Positions 53,968 to 59,806 of a stretch of DNA of 64,000 nt are shown here, in pieces (position 1 is the stretch's first letter; each line of letters opens with the position of its first letter). This DNA comes from Candidatus Bathyarchaeota archaeon (GTDB taxonomy: Archaea > Thermoproteota > Bathyarchaeia > TCS64). The notes under the pieces were generated by a model. It was not told where the DNA came from. It worked only from the letters and a program-made list of their open reading frames with translations, and did no database searches. The DNA is taken from assembly GCA_026014815.1 (NCBI GenBank), contig JAOZHP010000072.1:62001-126000 (forward strand). Direction: 5' to 3'. The translations under genes and the position numbers were made by a program.

Positions 53968-54043
53968 GGGCTGGTAGTTCAGGGGTATGAATGCTTGGTT
54001 CGCAACCAAGAGGTCGGGGGTTCAATTCCCCCCCAGTCCACCA
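53968..54043 (+). tRNA. tRNA-Ala(CGC), CCA encoded
   Basis: Acceptor GGGCTGG:CCAGTCC with G3:U70, anticodon arm CTTGG-TTCGCAA-CCAAG, T-arm GGGGGTTCAATTCCCCC, 3' ACCA. Confidence 0.92.
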
Positions 54044-54052
54044 TTCTGCTTC

Positions 54053-54147
54053 AAGTAACCTGTAATATTGGGAAAAAAAATTTCTTATTCTATCCACTGG
54101 GAGTTACGGAAAATGATTTTCCTGTCTTAGGGCATAACAGGTTACTT
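54053..54147. repeat. 95-bp inverted-repeat element next to tRNA-Ala with nested hairpin
   Basis: AAGTAACCTGT (54053-54063) and ACAGGTTACTT (54137-54147); inner GGAAAAT-G-ATTTTCC at 54108-54122. Confidence 0.6.
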
Positions 54148-54308
54148 ATTTTAAGGAAAAAATTGAGAATATTCCGTTATCCCTAGATTATTTTTTGATA
54201 CTCCAGCCTTTATCTATGAGCCGGGAGTTAGGGGTCGGGGGTTCAAATCTTCCTCTATCTGCATATATTGTCGATTTCCTACTGTGAGTATCCTACTCCC
54301 CTTTTTTC

Positions 54309-54336
54309 TCGTAAGTTTTAAGCGGTGATGCGCCCC
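54309..54336 (+). repeat. Module M1 copy A
   Basis: TCGTAAGTTTTAAGCGGTGATGCGCCCC. Confidence 0.85.
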
Positions 54337-54626
54337 GGAAAATCAGCTTTTCTTTATGAAGTTGCATTCGTCTCTGCACTGGATATGAACCTTTTTTCCC
54401 TCAGCCCTGCTTTCAATCCTATTAGAGCATCTATAGCAGTCCATGGCTGAGAAAAACCCCCGTGAAACCCACTGAGCCTTCTTTGCCGAGGAGGACAATA
54501 CAACAGCATGTACATCGGGCGAGATTTAAACGGATCAATCCACCAGATCAGTGCACACGCGTATAACAGTATCGCGCGCGCAGTAGATTATCTTTAAATA
54601 GATAGTAATGCATCTTGAATCTGATT

Positions 54627-55577
54627 ATGCCAGAAAATATTAGGTTCGGAGTTCATGATGGCATCGAAGGCTGGAACTTCGAGAGAGTGAAAGACTTCTG
54701 CTTAGAAGCTGAAACCCTTGGATTCGACTTCTTCACAGTCATGGACCATTTGATGAACCAGTGGGATCCACAGGGAGAGGGACCAATGGAGTGTTGGACA
54801 ACCCTTGCAGGACTAGCCGCGGTAACAAATAAGATCAAACTTGGCCCCCTTGTATCTTGTTATGGATACCACAGGCCCACGATGCTGGCGAAGATGGCTA
54901 CCTCAATAGACATCATTTCCAATGGACGGCTAATATTTGGATTAGGAGCCGGATGGCATGAGACCGAGTTCAAAGGCTTCACGGGTAGGTTTCCCTCGAC
55001 ACGAGAGAGGATGAGAGGACTGGAAGAGTCGTTGGAGATATGTAAGAGCATGTTCTCCAACGAATGGACTACCTATCATGGAAGGATCTATGAAGTCGAC
55101 AATGTTCAGAATAAACCGCAGCCAGTTCAAAGGCACATCCCCATCATTGTGGGGGGAGCGGGTGAGAAACGGACTCTCCGGATAGCGGCTAAACACGCTG
55201 ATATCAGCCATTTCTTGTCCCAGGGCTCCATCGAAGAGGATGCGAGGAAGTTCTCTGTTTTGGAGAAGCACTGTGAAGCTGTCGGGAGGGATTACACAGA
55301 CATCGTCAGGGGAACAGGTTTCCCGATATTTCTGGGCGCTTCGAAATCTGAGGTCATTTCTAAGTTTAGGAGATTTTGTGCCGAGTGTGATTGGCCTCCA
55401 CGAGTGATAGATTTCATGTTAGACAAGAGGAATCCAGTTCATGGATTTTTACCGGAGAACTATGTTGAGGCTCTACAGAGCTACATTGAAAAAGGCATCA
55501 CTTTCTTCACTTGCATGTTCTTAGATATCGACGATATGAGGACATTCGCTGAGGAAGTCATTCCAGAAGTCCTATGA
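54627..55577 (+). CDS. LLM-class flavin-dependent oxidoreductase
   Basis: FGVHDGIEGWNFERVKDFCLEAETLGFDFFTVMDH ... ISNGRLIFGLGAGWHETEFKGFT ... IPIIVGGAGEKRTLRIAAKHADI. Confidence 0.9.
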   Translation: MPENIRFGVHDGIEGWNFERVKDFCLEAETLGFDFFTVMDHLMNQWDPQGEGPMECWTTLAGLAAVTNKIKLGPLVSCYGYHRPTMLAKMATSIDIISNGRLIFGLGAGWHETEFKGFTGRFPSTRERMRGLEESLEICKSMFSNEWTTYHGRIYEVDNVQNKPQPVQRHIPIIVGGAGEKRTLRIAAKHADISHFLSQGSIEEDARKFSVLEKHCEAVGRDYTDIVRGTGFPIFLGASKSEVISKFRRFCAECDWPPRVIDFMLDKRNPVHGFLPENYVEALQSYIEKGITFFTCMFLDIDDMRTFAEEVIPEVL

Positions 55578-55647
55578 GTAATATCTCTTTACTTTTTTCC
55601 TGAACTAACATATTGTGTTACCTCCTTTCTTTATCCCAACTCTCATT

Positions 55648-55661
55648 TTCGCGCGCGCGAA
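55648..55661. repeat. Perfect alternating-CG palindrome
   Basis: TTCGCGCGCGCGAA, about 14 nt upstream of M1 copy B. Confidence 0.7.
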
Positions 55662-55674
55662 CCTTTACTTATTC

Positions 55675-55700
55675 ATAAGTTTTAAACGGTGATGCGCCCC
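55675..55700 (+). repeat. Module M1 copy B
   Basis: ATAAGTTTTAAACGGTGATGCGCCCC; 27 nt before ATG 55728. Confidence 0.85.
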
Positions 55701-55727
55701 ATTCAATGGTGCAAAGGCGGAAAGAAA

Positions 55728-56003
55728 ATGGCAAAGTATGTATATCTGTCGTATGTGATGCCGAAACCGGAACTGACTAGCGAGGTATTCCTAGAAAAGG
55801 TTCGACCACGGATGGAGAATGAGGAGGTAGAATACCTAGCCTTTGGACCCGCGATTGGGGTGCAGGAGGATTATTTACATATAAATAGCACCGATCTGGG
55901 GCTGAAGGAGTTCATAGACTTCCGCACGGAGGCCTTCACGGTCGACGGTAAAGACATGATAGATCACGCGAGGACTATAACCATCATTAACTACAGGGAG
56001 TAA
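55728..56003 (+). CDS. Small conserved-looking protein of unknown function
   Basis: MAKYVYLSYVMPKPELTSEVFLEKVRPRMENEEVEYLAFGPAIG; upstream M1 copy supports the later ATG. Confidence 0.55.
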   Translation: MAKYVYLSYVMPKPELTSEVFLEKVRPRMENEEVEYLAFGPAIGVQEDYLHINSTDLGLKEFIDFRTEAFTVDGKDMIDHARTITIINYRE

Positions 56004-56025
56004 TAACTCCCCTCCTTTTTTCCTC

Positions 56026-56074
56026 GTAAGTTTTAAGCGGTGATGCGCCTCCCCCATACTCTTTTCTTCACTTC
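56026..56074 (+). repeat. Composite repeat M1+M2 (copy C)
   Basis: GTAAGTTTTAAGCGGTGATGCGCCT-C-CCCCATACTCTTTTCTTCACTTC. Confidence 0.85.
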
Positions 56075-56119
56075 ACCGTAATCCTAGATTGATCAGAGAT
56101 AGTTGAGATCACGTACCAG

Positions 56120-56641
56120 ATGGTGTTGAGCACCCTCCAGACGGTGGCACTCATAGTAGGTATCACCTACTACCTGTTCATCATGAGGAACTCACAGAAA
56201 ACAAGGGAGTTAGCACTAAATGCTCAGGAACAGGCTCTTGAAACCAGACAGACTCAGCTCTTCATGGATGTATACAGGAGCCATACGACAAAGGAGCACC
56301 AGGCAGACGTTTCGGAGTTGTTGCTTAGTTGGGATTGGAATGATTTTGATGACTTCAAAGAGAAATATATGGTCCCGCCAGATAATGCGAAATATCTCAG
56401 TTATTTTGCGAATTTAGAGGGCTTGGGGCTACTTGTGAGAAATGGTTTGCTTGATGCTAATCTCGTCTATGACCTGCAGTATGTCTCGATTATCATGATC
56501 TGGGAAAAGTTCCTGCCCATAATACTTGAGTATAGGGAAGCATGGTCGACACCTCAATTATGGGGTACAGTAGAATATCTCTACGATGAGATGAAGAGAA
56601 TAAGAGTAGAGAGAAGCCACGGGGAAACAACCATCGAATAA
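56120..56641 (+). CDS. Single-TM protein of unknown function (DUF4760-like)
   Basis: TLQTVALIVGITYYLFIMRNSQKTRELALNAQEQALETRQTQLFMDVYR. Confidence 0.55.
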   Translation: MVLSTLQTVALIVGITYYLFIMRNSQKTRELALNAQEQALETRQTQLFMDVYRSHTTKEHQADVSELLLSWDWNDFDDFKEKYMVPPDNAKYLSYFANLEGLGLLVRNGLLDANLVYDLQYVSIIMIWEKFLPIILEYREAWSTPQLWGTVEYLYDEMKRIRVERSHGETTIE

Positions 56642-56671
56642 ACAATTTGCATAGCCTAAGCTCGAACATAA

Positions 56672-56694
56672 CCCCATACTCTTTTCTTAACTTC
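56672..56694 (+). repeat. Module M2 copy
   Basis: CCCCATACTCTTTTCTTAACTTC. Confidence 0.85.
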
Positions 56695-56710
56695 CACCTA
56701 ATGGTGGATA

Positions 56711-57502
56711 GTGTTTGCATTGCCGTACGTTGAAAGTGATGGTATCAATATTTATTATGAGGTTGAGGGCGAAGGCGCCCCCTTAATGCTCCTCCACGGA
56801 TTAGCTGGAAGTCTAAACGGCTTCAGAAACTTAGGCTACACAGAGAAGCTTAGCAAAGAACATCAATTGATCCTAATCGACGCACGAGGACATGGGAGAA
56901 GCGACAAACCCCATCAACCCGAGGCTTACAGGCTAAAACTCTTTGTAAACGACACCTTAGCAGTACTAGACGAACTTGGAGTAGAGAAGCCTCATTTTCT
57001 CGGTTACTCAATGGGAGGAATGGTGGGTCTAGGCATCGGCGTCTACTCTCCAGACAGATTCAGTTCATTGATTATTGGCGGCTGGGGAATGCGAGAGAGG
57101 CATACCGAGATGTCGATCAAATTTGAGCAGGGGTTAATAGAGAGATTTCAAAAGGGAATTGACGCAATGTGGTCTGTGCGTGCGGGGTCTCTCCAAGGGT
57201 TACCCTCTGAAGTGTTATCGAGGATGAAAGAGGAGTTTTACCTAAATGACCCGGAAGCACTCTTAGCGTTTCTTTCTGTAAGGGAACATGTTGGTTTCGA
57301 AGACTTTTTACCTTCGTTGGAGTTGCCCTGTTTATTCTATGCTGGTGATGAAGATTTTTTACATGATGGGGCCAAGCAGACGGCAGAGTTAATTCCGAAT
57401 GCAAGGTTTGTCTCTCTTCCGGGTTTGGATCATATGGGGGCTTTTCGACACAGCGACAAGGTTCTTCCCCATGTTTTAAGCTTCATTAAAGAAGCCGGTT
57501 AA
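56711..57502 (+). CDS. Alpha/beta hydrolase
   Basis: LMLLHGLAGSLNGFRNLGY; LIDARGHGRSDKPH; FLGYSMGGMVGLGIGVYSPDRF. Confidence 0.93.
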   Translation: MFALPYVESDGINIYYEVEGEGAPLMLLHGLAGSLNGFRNLGYTEKLSKEHQLILIDARGHGRSDKPHQPEAYRLKLFVNDTLAVLDELGVEKPHFLGYSMGGMVGLGIGVYSPDRFSSLIIGGWGMRERHTEMSIKFEQGLIERFQKGIDAMWSVRAGSLQGLPSEVLSRMKEEFYLNDPEALLAFLSVREHVGFEDFLPSLELPCLFYAGDEDFLHDGAKQTAELIPNARFVSLPGLDHMGAFRHSDKVLPHVLSFIKEAG

Positions 57503-57531
57503 ATCATACTCTAACTACGAAATATACCTAG

Positions 57532-57554
57532 CCCCATACTCTTTTCTTCACTTC
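57532..57554 (+). repeat. Module M2 copy
   Basis: CCCCATACTCTTTTCTTCACTTC. Confidence 0.85.
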
Positions 57555-57578
57555 GCCCTAATGATAAACGGTGTCTAG

Positions 57579-58529
57579 TTGAGACCTTTGAGGTTTGGAG
57601 TATTATCTTTTTTATCAAATCAAAGTCTTCCTGTCCAAGAATGGACGCATGCTGTACAAAAAATCGAAAAACTAGGATACTCAACCGTCTTCCGACAAGA
57701 TCACTTCGACACCACAGCATATGACCCAATAGCCATGTTGGCTTCAGCAGCATCGGTTACCAAGACACTGAATATTGGTTCATTCGTATTTGCCGTCGAC
57801 TTCCGTCATCCAGTAGTATTAGCAAAAGCAGCCGCGACATTACATCTATTATCCTCTGGAAGATTCGAGTTTGGAATCGGAACAGGGTTTCACCCATATG
57901 ATTACAATATGTCAGGCATTACCCTTGATCCAGCAAGTAAGAGAGTTGAACGCCTCGAAGAAGCCCTCAAAATCATCAAAGGGATGTGGACACAGGAGAG
58001 AACGAACTTCTCAGGAAAGCATTATCAGGTCACTGAGATTGAGAAGGCTGGTGAACTACCAGAAGGGGAGCGTCCCCCAATAATGATTGGTGGGGGTGGA
58101 AGAAAGATGCTGAGGCTGGCGGCTCAGCATGCAGATATCGTAGATATTATTCCTCCTTGGAGGGGGAGTTGGAGTAGAGCCTATAAAGAACAGACACTTG
58201 ATGGCATCAAACGAAAAATCAATCGCGTAAAAACAGCAGCTGAAGATTTTGGACGTGATCCAGATGATATCGAATTTCAGGTTGTATCGCTGAGGACGGA
58301 AATTACAGATAAACCTGAGCCAATAATTGAGAACTTGGCTAATGATTTTGGCATTACTACCGAAGATATTGAAAACAGTGAGTATGTCATGATTGGATCA
58401 AGTTCGGAGATTCGGAACAGGATTATGAGGTTTCGTGAAGAAACAGGAGTAAATTATTTTGTGTTTAGGTTAAGAAGTGATCAATTCGATGAGTATGCTG
58501 AATCGATAGTCAAACCATTGACGACCTAA
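57579..58529 (+). CDS. LLM-class flavin-dependent oxidoreductase
   Basis: LSSGRFEFGIGTGFHPYDY ... PPIMIGGGGRKMLRLAAQHADIVDI; TTG start. Confidence 0.9.
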   Translation: MRPLRFGVLSFLSNQSLPVQEWTHAVQKIEKLGYSTVFRQDHFDTTAYDPIAMLASAASVTKTLNIGSFVFAVDFRHPVVLAKAAATLHLLSSGRFEFGIGTGFHPYDYNMSGITLDPASKRVERLEEALKIIKGMWTQERTNFSGKHYQVTEIEKAGELPEGERPPIMIGGGGRKMLRLAAQHADIVDIIPPWRGSWSRAYKEQTLDGIKRKINRVKTAAEDFGRDPDDIEFQVVSLRTEITDKPEPIIENLANDFGITTEDIENSEYVMIGSSSEIRNRIMRFREETGVNYFVFRLRSDQFDEYAESIVKPLTT

Positions 58530-58608
58530 TGCTCAAATATAACTCTGCAGATTCAAACGTACAACTCTTCAACTCTGTATGTTGGATGGTTCAACCTGAT
58601 TCTCTGCG

Positions 58609-58631
58609 CCCCATACTCTTTTCTTCACTCC
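58609..58631 (+). repeat. Module M2 copy (copy D, left part)
   Basis: CCCCATACTCTTTTCTTCACTCC. Confidence 0.85.
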
Positions 58632-58640
58632 ACGCGCTCG

Positions 58641-58665
58641 ATAGTTTTAAGCGGTGATGCGCCCC
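58641..58665 (+). repeat. Module M1 copy D
   Basis: ATAGTTTTAAGCGGTGATGCGCCCC. Confidence 0.85.
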
Positions 58666-58730
58666 ACTCTGTGGTGTAACTTCCATTGGGGAGCTATACA
58701 AGCACCAAAAAGAATACGGAGAGCACATAG

Positions 58731-59306
58731 ATGAAGGTTGAACTCGGGCAGAAGAACTATCTCTACCCTGCGTTGGTGGTGCTCGTGGGTGCCAACGTCA
58801 ACGGCAAACCGAACTACACGCCTGTGGCCCACACGGGACTCTGGATAACCAGATCCTCTGTGGCGTTGACAGGTAACAGCCACTCGAACAAGGGGATAAA
58901 GGAGAATGGGACCTTCAGTTTCAACATCCCATCCCAGGAACAGCTGATCCTGACGGACTACTGTGGTCTGGTCTCGGGCAAGGACACGGACAAGGGGGCG
59001 CTTTTCACCAACTTCTATGGTGAGTTAGGGACGGCGCCAATGATAGAGGAGTGTCCCCTCAATATGGAGTTCAGGGTCGTGGAGACTACCGTTTCTCCGC
59101 GCTCGCGCGGCGTCCCCGCTGATGTCTACATCGGCGAGATCATCGCAACCTACTGCAACGAGGACGTGTTGACCGATGGTGAACTCGACTTGATGAAGGT
59201 CAAACCATATTTCGTAAGCGCTAGGGATCTATTCTATTATGGTCTGGGTGAGAGGATAGCGAGGGACGGAATCGGCGAACAGCTGAAGGAAAAACAGGAG
59301 AAATAA
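58731..59306 (+). CDS. Flavin reductase family protein
   Basis: LYPALVVLVGANVNGKPNYTPVAHTGLWITRSSVALTGNSHSNKGIKENGTFSFNIPSQEQL. Confidence 0.88.
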   Translation: MKVELGQKNYLYPALVVLVGANVNGKPNYTPVAHTGLWITRSSVALTGNSHSNKGIKENGTFSFNIPSQEQLILTDYCGLVSGKDTDKGALFTNFYGELGTAPMIEECPLNMEFRVVETTVSPRSRGVPADVYIGEIIATYCNEDVLTDGELDLMKVKPYFVSARDLFYYGLGERIARDGIGEQLKEKQEK

Positions 59307-59358
59307 TGAAAAAACATCTTCCATCTTTTTTCTTGAAACCACTCAGATGCTGACTCTA

Positions 59359-59377
59359 GTGAAGAAAAGAGTATGGG
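59359..59377 (-). repeat. Inverted module M2 copy
   Basis: GTGAAGAAAAGAGTATGGG is the reverse complement of CCCATACTCTTTTCTTCAC. Confidence 0.8.
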
Positions 59378-59386
59378 CGCGTTCTC

Positions 59387-59412
59387 GTAAGTTTTAAGCG
59401 GTGATGCGCCCC
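59387..59412 (+). repeat. Module M1 copy E
   Basis: GTAAGTTTTAAGCGGTGATGCGCCCC. Confidence 0.85.
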
Positions 59413-59451
59413 ATGGAAAATCAGCGATAAAAGCTTTACTACGTCGAAAAA

Positions 59452-59477
59452 GTAAAACTTAAGCGGTGATGCACCGC
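59452..59477 (+). repeat. Module M1 copy F (diverged)
   Basis: GTAAAACTTAAGCGGTGATGCACCGC. Confidence 0.7.
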
Positions 59478-59501
59478 ACCACGTATTACTTTAATTATAT
59501 G

Positions 59502-59527
59502 GTAAGTCTTAAGCGGTGATGTGCACC
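59502..59527 (+). repeat. Module M1 copy G (diverged)
   Basis: GTAAGTCTTAAGCGGTGATGTGCACC. Confidence 0.7.
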
Positions 59528-59806
59528 ACACAATGGTGCAGTAAGGGAGATCGGAGGAGAGACCATGGTTTTTGATGAACTCAAGGCAGCAGCGGGTCAG
59601 ATCACTGGCTTATTCAGGTACTGTAGACCGAAGGAGTATGCGCGGTGAGGGACCAACGACTACGATGACGTTAGCATAGAGTTAAACGCCATCAACAGAA
59701 GCTCAAAGAGGTACTGCGGTCGCGGGGCATGGCGACCCGAATTACGCTTGAGAAAACCTCAAAACAGCACGCCAACCTCTTTTTTCCGCTAAAAAAGGGT
59801 TTTGTA

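Follow-up and report, generated by a model that had tools for sequence, protein, structure and literature searches.

Two short intergenic repeats, M1 (consensus GTAAnnnTTAAGCGGTGATGCGCC) and M2 (consensus CCCCATACTCTTTTCTTCACTTCnACCTAAT), which punctuate an accessory island in a Bathyarchaeota genome, are probably lineage-specific archaeal core promoters that carry part of a leader. This is the best supported of the readings that we considered, and it is firmer for M2 than for M1. From their sequence and placement, the two repeats read as a reusable promoter kit rather than as a gene-capture system. The island lies at 54.3-59.5 kb of the window, by which we mean the whole stretch of 64,000 nucleotides that was analyzed; it comes from contig C99, in a MAG of 3.09 Mb (159 contigs, 93% complete, 4.5% contamination). 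The genes and repeat copies of the island and its border are:

53968..54043, + strand, tRNA-Ala(CGC), bordering the variable slot on its left
54309..54336, + strand, M1 copy 1, about 290 nt 5' of the first LLM gene
54651..55577, + strand, LLM luciferase-like oxidoreductase (PF00296)
55673..55700, + strand, M1 copy 2, about 30 nt 5' of the small gene (likely ATG at 55731)
55731..56003, + strand, small protein without Pfam match
56024..56051, + strand, M1 copy 3, fused to M2 copy 1
56052..56074, + strand, M2 copy 1, 5' of the DUF4760 gene
56120..56641, + strand, DUF4760 protein (PF15956), the commonest gene family behind M2
56672..56694, + strand, M2 copy 2, about 17 nt 5' of the called start of the alpha/beta hydrolase gene
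56711..57502, + strand, alpha/beta hydrolase (PF00561)
57532..57554, + strand, M2 copy 3, 25-35 nt 5' of the second LLM start
57579..58529, + strand, second LLM luciferase-like oxidoreductase (PF00296)
58609..58631, + strand, M2 copy 4, opening half of an M2+M1 composite
58638..58665, + strand, M1 copy 4, second half of this composite, 5' of the flavin reductase gene
58731..59306, + strand, flavin reductase-like protein (PF01613)
59356..59378, - strand, M2 copy 5, inverted (M2a form), pointing at the 3' end of the flavin reductase gene
59385..59412, + strand, M1 copy 5, first of a triple M1 array
59450..59477, + strand, M1 copy 6, diverged, 65 bp past copy 5
59500..59527, + strand, M1 copy 7, diverged, 50 bp past copy 6, with module gamma in between

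Repeat finding, with the M1 copies set in register, returned the seven M1 and five M2 copies counted in the initial annotation, against a chance expectation of 0.00 for either repeat in the shuffled window. Five of the seven M1 copies are near-exact, those at 59450 and 59500 having diverged, and M2 is present in four + copies and one inverted copy (59356-59378). As first described, neither repeat recurs when the remainder of the window is scanned, and every gap from 55.6 kb onward holds at least one module. The copy at 56024-56074 is indeed a fusion of M1 and M2, but it is not the sole composite: M2 is followed by M1 at 58609-58665, and inverted M2 by M1 at 59356-59412. A genome-wide search, which had also been proposed, yields many copies outside the island, so the modules are not private to it. 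The MAG contains 27 M1 copies at up to 3 mismatches (0 in controls), 49 copies of the M1 core at up to 2 mismatches (0 for the reversed pattern) and 10 copies of M2. Both repeats are present in other genera of the family. Among 27 family genomes, M1 cores with at most one mismatch number 33 in G000, 13 in G018, 5 in G016, 3 in G022, 2 each in G010 and G004, and 1 in G024, while M2 matches occur in 11 genomes, chiefly G010, G024, G018, G020 and G000, isolated two-mismatch hits in the remaining genomes being at about control level.

One line of evidence for M2 as a promoter is its position. Measured from gene calls produced in this analysis, which underlie all gap and distance counts given here for M1 and M2, M2 is followed on its own strand by 35 starts within 250 nt, and 14 of these lie at 25-31 nt (P about 2e-13 against uniform spacing). 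Copies of M2 cluster at 0.4-1.3 kb spacing, mostly on a single strand per cluster, and punctuate single-gene units in other genera as well; the genes behind them that recur across genera are DUF4760, GNAT, LLM, HpcH/HpaI aldolase and hydrolase genes. Upstream of 23 DUF4760 genes, we found an M2-type element in 7 cases, a TATA-type element in 14, both in none and, by the patterns used, neither in 2. These elements mostly lie at -27 to -40, with outliers due to some uncertain start codons. The replacement of M2 by TATA-type elements, together with CCATAATTTTATCCTCACTTCACC, which is intermediate in form between the two types, suggests that M2 is a diverged TATA-type promoter, one that would travel with a recurrent set of single-gene units. 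In K-mer counts over 195 upstream regions, the excess of TTTTAT/TTTATC is modest only. A conserved tail resembling TCAGCATCTGAGTGGTTTCAAGAAAAAAG marks the variant M2a, which points at the 3' end of a gene on the opposite strand (examples at 59330-59378 of the window, L102:9675 and L112:10487); this placement counts against the promoter reading.

For M1, conservation spans GTAA-nnn-TTAAGCGGTGATGCGCC, with information limited to about -8 to +18. The repeat carries TTTTAAG, and GGTG follows at exactly +26 in 22 of 101 cores, where about 0.4 would be expected. Only 2 of these 101 cores fall inside genes, with coding sequence making up 81% of the 821,605 bases. In codirectional gaps, 47 cores point along the direction of the genes and 11 point the opposite way; convergent gaps hold 17 and divergent gaps 21. 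As convergent gaps are almost as well populated as divergent ones, some cores apparently drive no gene, and the distance from M1 to the start codon is broad. We suggest that M1 would combine a BRE/TATA-like element with a GGTG initiator at +26 and with a conserved stretch that lies between its TATA and the start site. It heads unrelated protein genes as well as two structured RNAs, zeta and eta.

These RNAs correspond to longer non-coding repeats headed by some of the M1 cores. Of the 18 full zeta copies (about 165 nt) in the family, G000 has 11 and G018 has 4, with single copies in G004, G011 and G024. The zeta loci include L175, L180, L182 and 15 others, and the ends of this RNA pair. G018 contains 8 strong copies of eta (about 105 nt), and matches outside it are weaker; the eta segments CTGGT and TAACC..TAAAA are strongly conserved. 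Eta loci comprise L128:2488-2613 and sites on contigs C3, C4, C41 and C46 of G018, with distant copies on G000:C69, G015:C90, G016:C196, and C86 and C110 of G024. Neither RNA has a match in Rfam 15. Covariation is 0.189 for zeta (0.139 shuffled) and 0.335 for eta (0.118 shuffled), in both cases above all 500 shuffles and every slid control, values biased in favor of the structures because the alignments had been fitted to them. Eta additionally has a pseudoknot, TGCGG/CCGCA, which is 97% paired and includes three two-sided pairs. G-U cells outnumber A-C cells 67:12 in zeta and 41:9 in eta, indicating that the folded strand is the strand in M1 direction.

A search around the match start, allowing up to 4 mismatches, detected M1 cores at 13 of the 18 zeta and 8 of the 13 eta copies. 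A single register accounts for 11 of the 18 zeta copies and all eight G018 eta copies (19 of 26), and the core is missing from it in seven zeta and five distant eta copies; the off-register zeta hits at L188 and L191 are probably due to chance. In this shared register, TTTAAG precedes the 5' helix of zeta and eta by about 24 nt. Distant eta copies occur without M1, and four of six M1-less copies have a TATA-like box at 24-31.5 nt (background 4%, P about 3e-5), by a pattern list that was in part post hoc, having been written after the sequences were viewed. Replacement by a TATA box is thus seen both upstream of DUF4760 genes and in eta, and a TATA-like element keeps a fixed distance of about 24-31 nt to the inferred 5' ends of zeta and eta and to GGTG. 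As in archaeal BRE/TATA promoters, an AT-rich box, here TTTTAAG or TTTTATC, precedes the inferred RNA start by about 24-31 nt, and canonical TATA-like boxes take its place at corresponding positions. Unlike such promoters, M1 has a long additional conserved block 3' of TATA, and copies are 80-90% identical over 40-100 bp across unrelated genes.

Of the explanations offered in the initial annotation, a shared promoter therefore fares best, by its spacing and by TATA replacement. The flavin-enzyme regulon attached to it does not hold, since the downstream genes are diverse; the flavin-enzyme character is a local impression, and elsewhere M1 and M2 precede genes of other kinds, among them DUF4760, GNAT, aldolase, collagen-like, SPFH and B12-binding ones. 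In other genomes, homologues of the flavin reductase have no M1 upstream, and several have TATA-like stretches there. If the promoter reading is correct, it provides a sequence-level definition of two promoter types for a mostly uncultivated archaeal group and hints at how unrelated accessory genes acquire common control sequences. The analysis also brings to light two RNA families outside Rfam 15, with a strand, ends and a promoter that are open to prediction. A search of the open-licence literature with a few terms returned no published account of M1 or M2.

M1 may be more than a core promoter. CGGTGATGCGCC, between TATA and the inferred start, is conserved while the neighboring spacer varies, and this conservation exceeds the needs of a plain TATA promoter. 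It is conceivable, and compatible with the promoter reading, that a dedicated regulator binds M1 between TATA and the start, which would make the repeat its operator and the M1 genes a true regulon; we entertain this tentatively for the CGGTGATG block of M1. Speaking against it, the downstream genes share no coherent function, and a regulator was not identified.

We consider it unlikely that M1 is a non-autonomous mobile repeat of the modular BOX or MITE type that brings promoters along, as the initial annotation had proposed for the repeats. Several features would suit such an element. Gaps contain up to three M1 cores with recurrent spacings (38-40, 50, 62-66, 111-115 and about 215 nt), and the bodies between cores are interchangeable and recur in different combinations. 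Zeta is 78-82% identical between genera, and in 10 of 18 copies another core follows within 45 nt downstream. The distribution of M1 is patchy, with many copies in G000, zero or two in each of seven congeners, and presence in other genera. Moreover, the 57 bp M2+M1 composite is 89% identical in G018, so that two genera share the unit in front of different genes, flavin reductase here and collagen-like in G018. Shuffled modules and a composite before unrelated genes thus speak for the idea, whereas no linked transposase outside the RAYT/Y1 class was seen, no target duplication or empty site was found, and eta occurs without M1. The ends of zeta pair with each other, as do those of eta, but the M1 units share no terminal inverted repeat common to all copies. 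Given the combinatorial shuffling of M1 modules and the hypervariable slot that the island fills, a mobile repeat may nevertheless have contributed.

Known repeat families show both parallels and differences. Pneumococcal BOX elements are modular intergenic repeats with folded RNA forms and reported effects on neighboring genes (PMC3049150). Modular composition and folded structure are found here too, with shared and variable modules between genes and RNA-like folding, but M1 is archaeal and sits at the module head as a putative promoter, and neither common terminal inverted repeats nor target duplication were found for it. GTAG-tagged REPs and BIMEs with RAYT transposases (PMC3733652) are also intergenic hairpin repeats in mosaics, but M1 cores within a cluster mostly point in the same direction, and by inspection the module sequences contain no GTAG/CGTC-tagged palindrome of 20-40 bp. 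Less probable again is a promoter-plus-RNA mobile system, in which M1 would spread with zeta and the pseudoknotted eta and be shuffled between RNA bodies and protein genes; if true, it would rewire accessory genes.

Very unlikely, finally, is cassette recombination as suggested earlier, here taken as an integron-like system with M1 and M2 for its sites, since co-oriented single-gene units, the slot adjoining tRNA-Ala and the single M1 orientation in most clusters, which would fit it, stand against a lack of RYYYAAC/GTTRRRY attC arms in the module sequences as judged by eye, one to three sites per gap instead of one per cassette, PF00589 hits confined to contigs C15, C131 and C63, none of which carries M1, a fixed distance of M2 to start codons, which is a promoter requirement, a folded strand that is the M1-direction strand and tolerates G-U as RNA does, and units with almost no genes in common. 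Archaeal integrons resemble the island in their tandem co-oriented accessory genes with repeats in between, and differ from it in that the island has no visible attC anatomy or nearby PF00589 integrase and has several repeats per gap (PMC9668308). By protein comparison, the genes around M1 have few relatives, and shared genes are almost absent among M1 units.

For the promoter reading, the genomic setting suggests how copies could have come together. The proteasome/tRNA-Ala neighborhood is kept in much of the family and the DNA beyond the tRNA varies between genomes, which places the island in a hypervariable slot beside tRNA-Ala. An empty site at the proteasome/tRNA locus was not found among the family genomes compared, and G010 has its own M2-DUF4760 array adjoining the proteasome gene. 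In such accessory slots, copies would be mixed as modules, most simply through duplication and homologous recombination between like promoters. The C99 proteasome gene, the one for which this comparison was made, shares 82-90% identity with its counterparts in five congeners; C99 therefore belongs to the host genus, and bin contamination does not explain the island.

Some further observations concern individual loci. In the region from tRNA-Ala onward (53968-54250 of the window), the tRNA is followed by the arms of an inverted repeat (54053-54066/54134-54147) and, at 54230, by a 20-nt fragment resembling a tRNA. The 3' flank of this tRNA-Ala is 91% identical to that of another tRNA-Ala on C107, which M1 also follows. 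Behind the triple M1 array, a short reading frame at 59565-59790 is interrupted by an in-frame TGA (59646) and resembles a broken gene. A viral origin was considered and rejected: the M1 core matches IMG/VR just once, within a reading frame on a contig with phage-like genes, which was taken as chance, and exact viral hits to M2, zeta, eta and a gapped M1 pattern were absent. A tyrosine-recombinase-like gene (L106:3490-4692, on G000:C126), with a weak match to PF02899 and none to PF00589, begins about 100 nt behind an exact M1. DUF4760 genes are amplified to as many as 15 per genome, some of them in tandem (G010:C1, G015, G020, G023). In each of two genera, a gene about 28 nt past M1 encodes a small acidic protein that ends in KKPWWKFW (L109:5375-5527 and L128:10562-10735).
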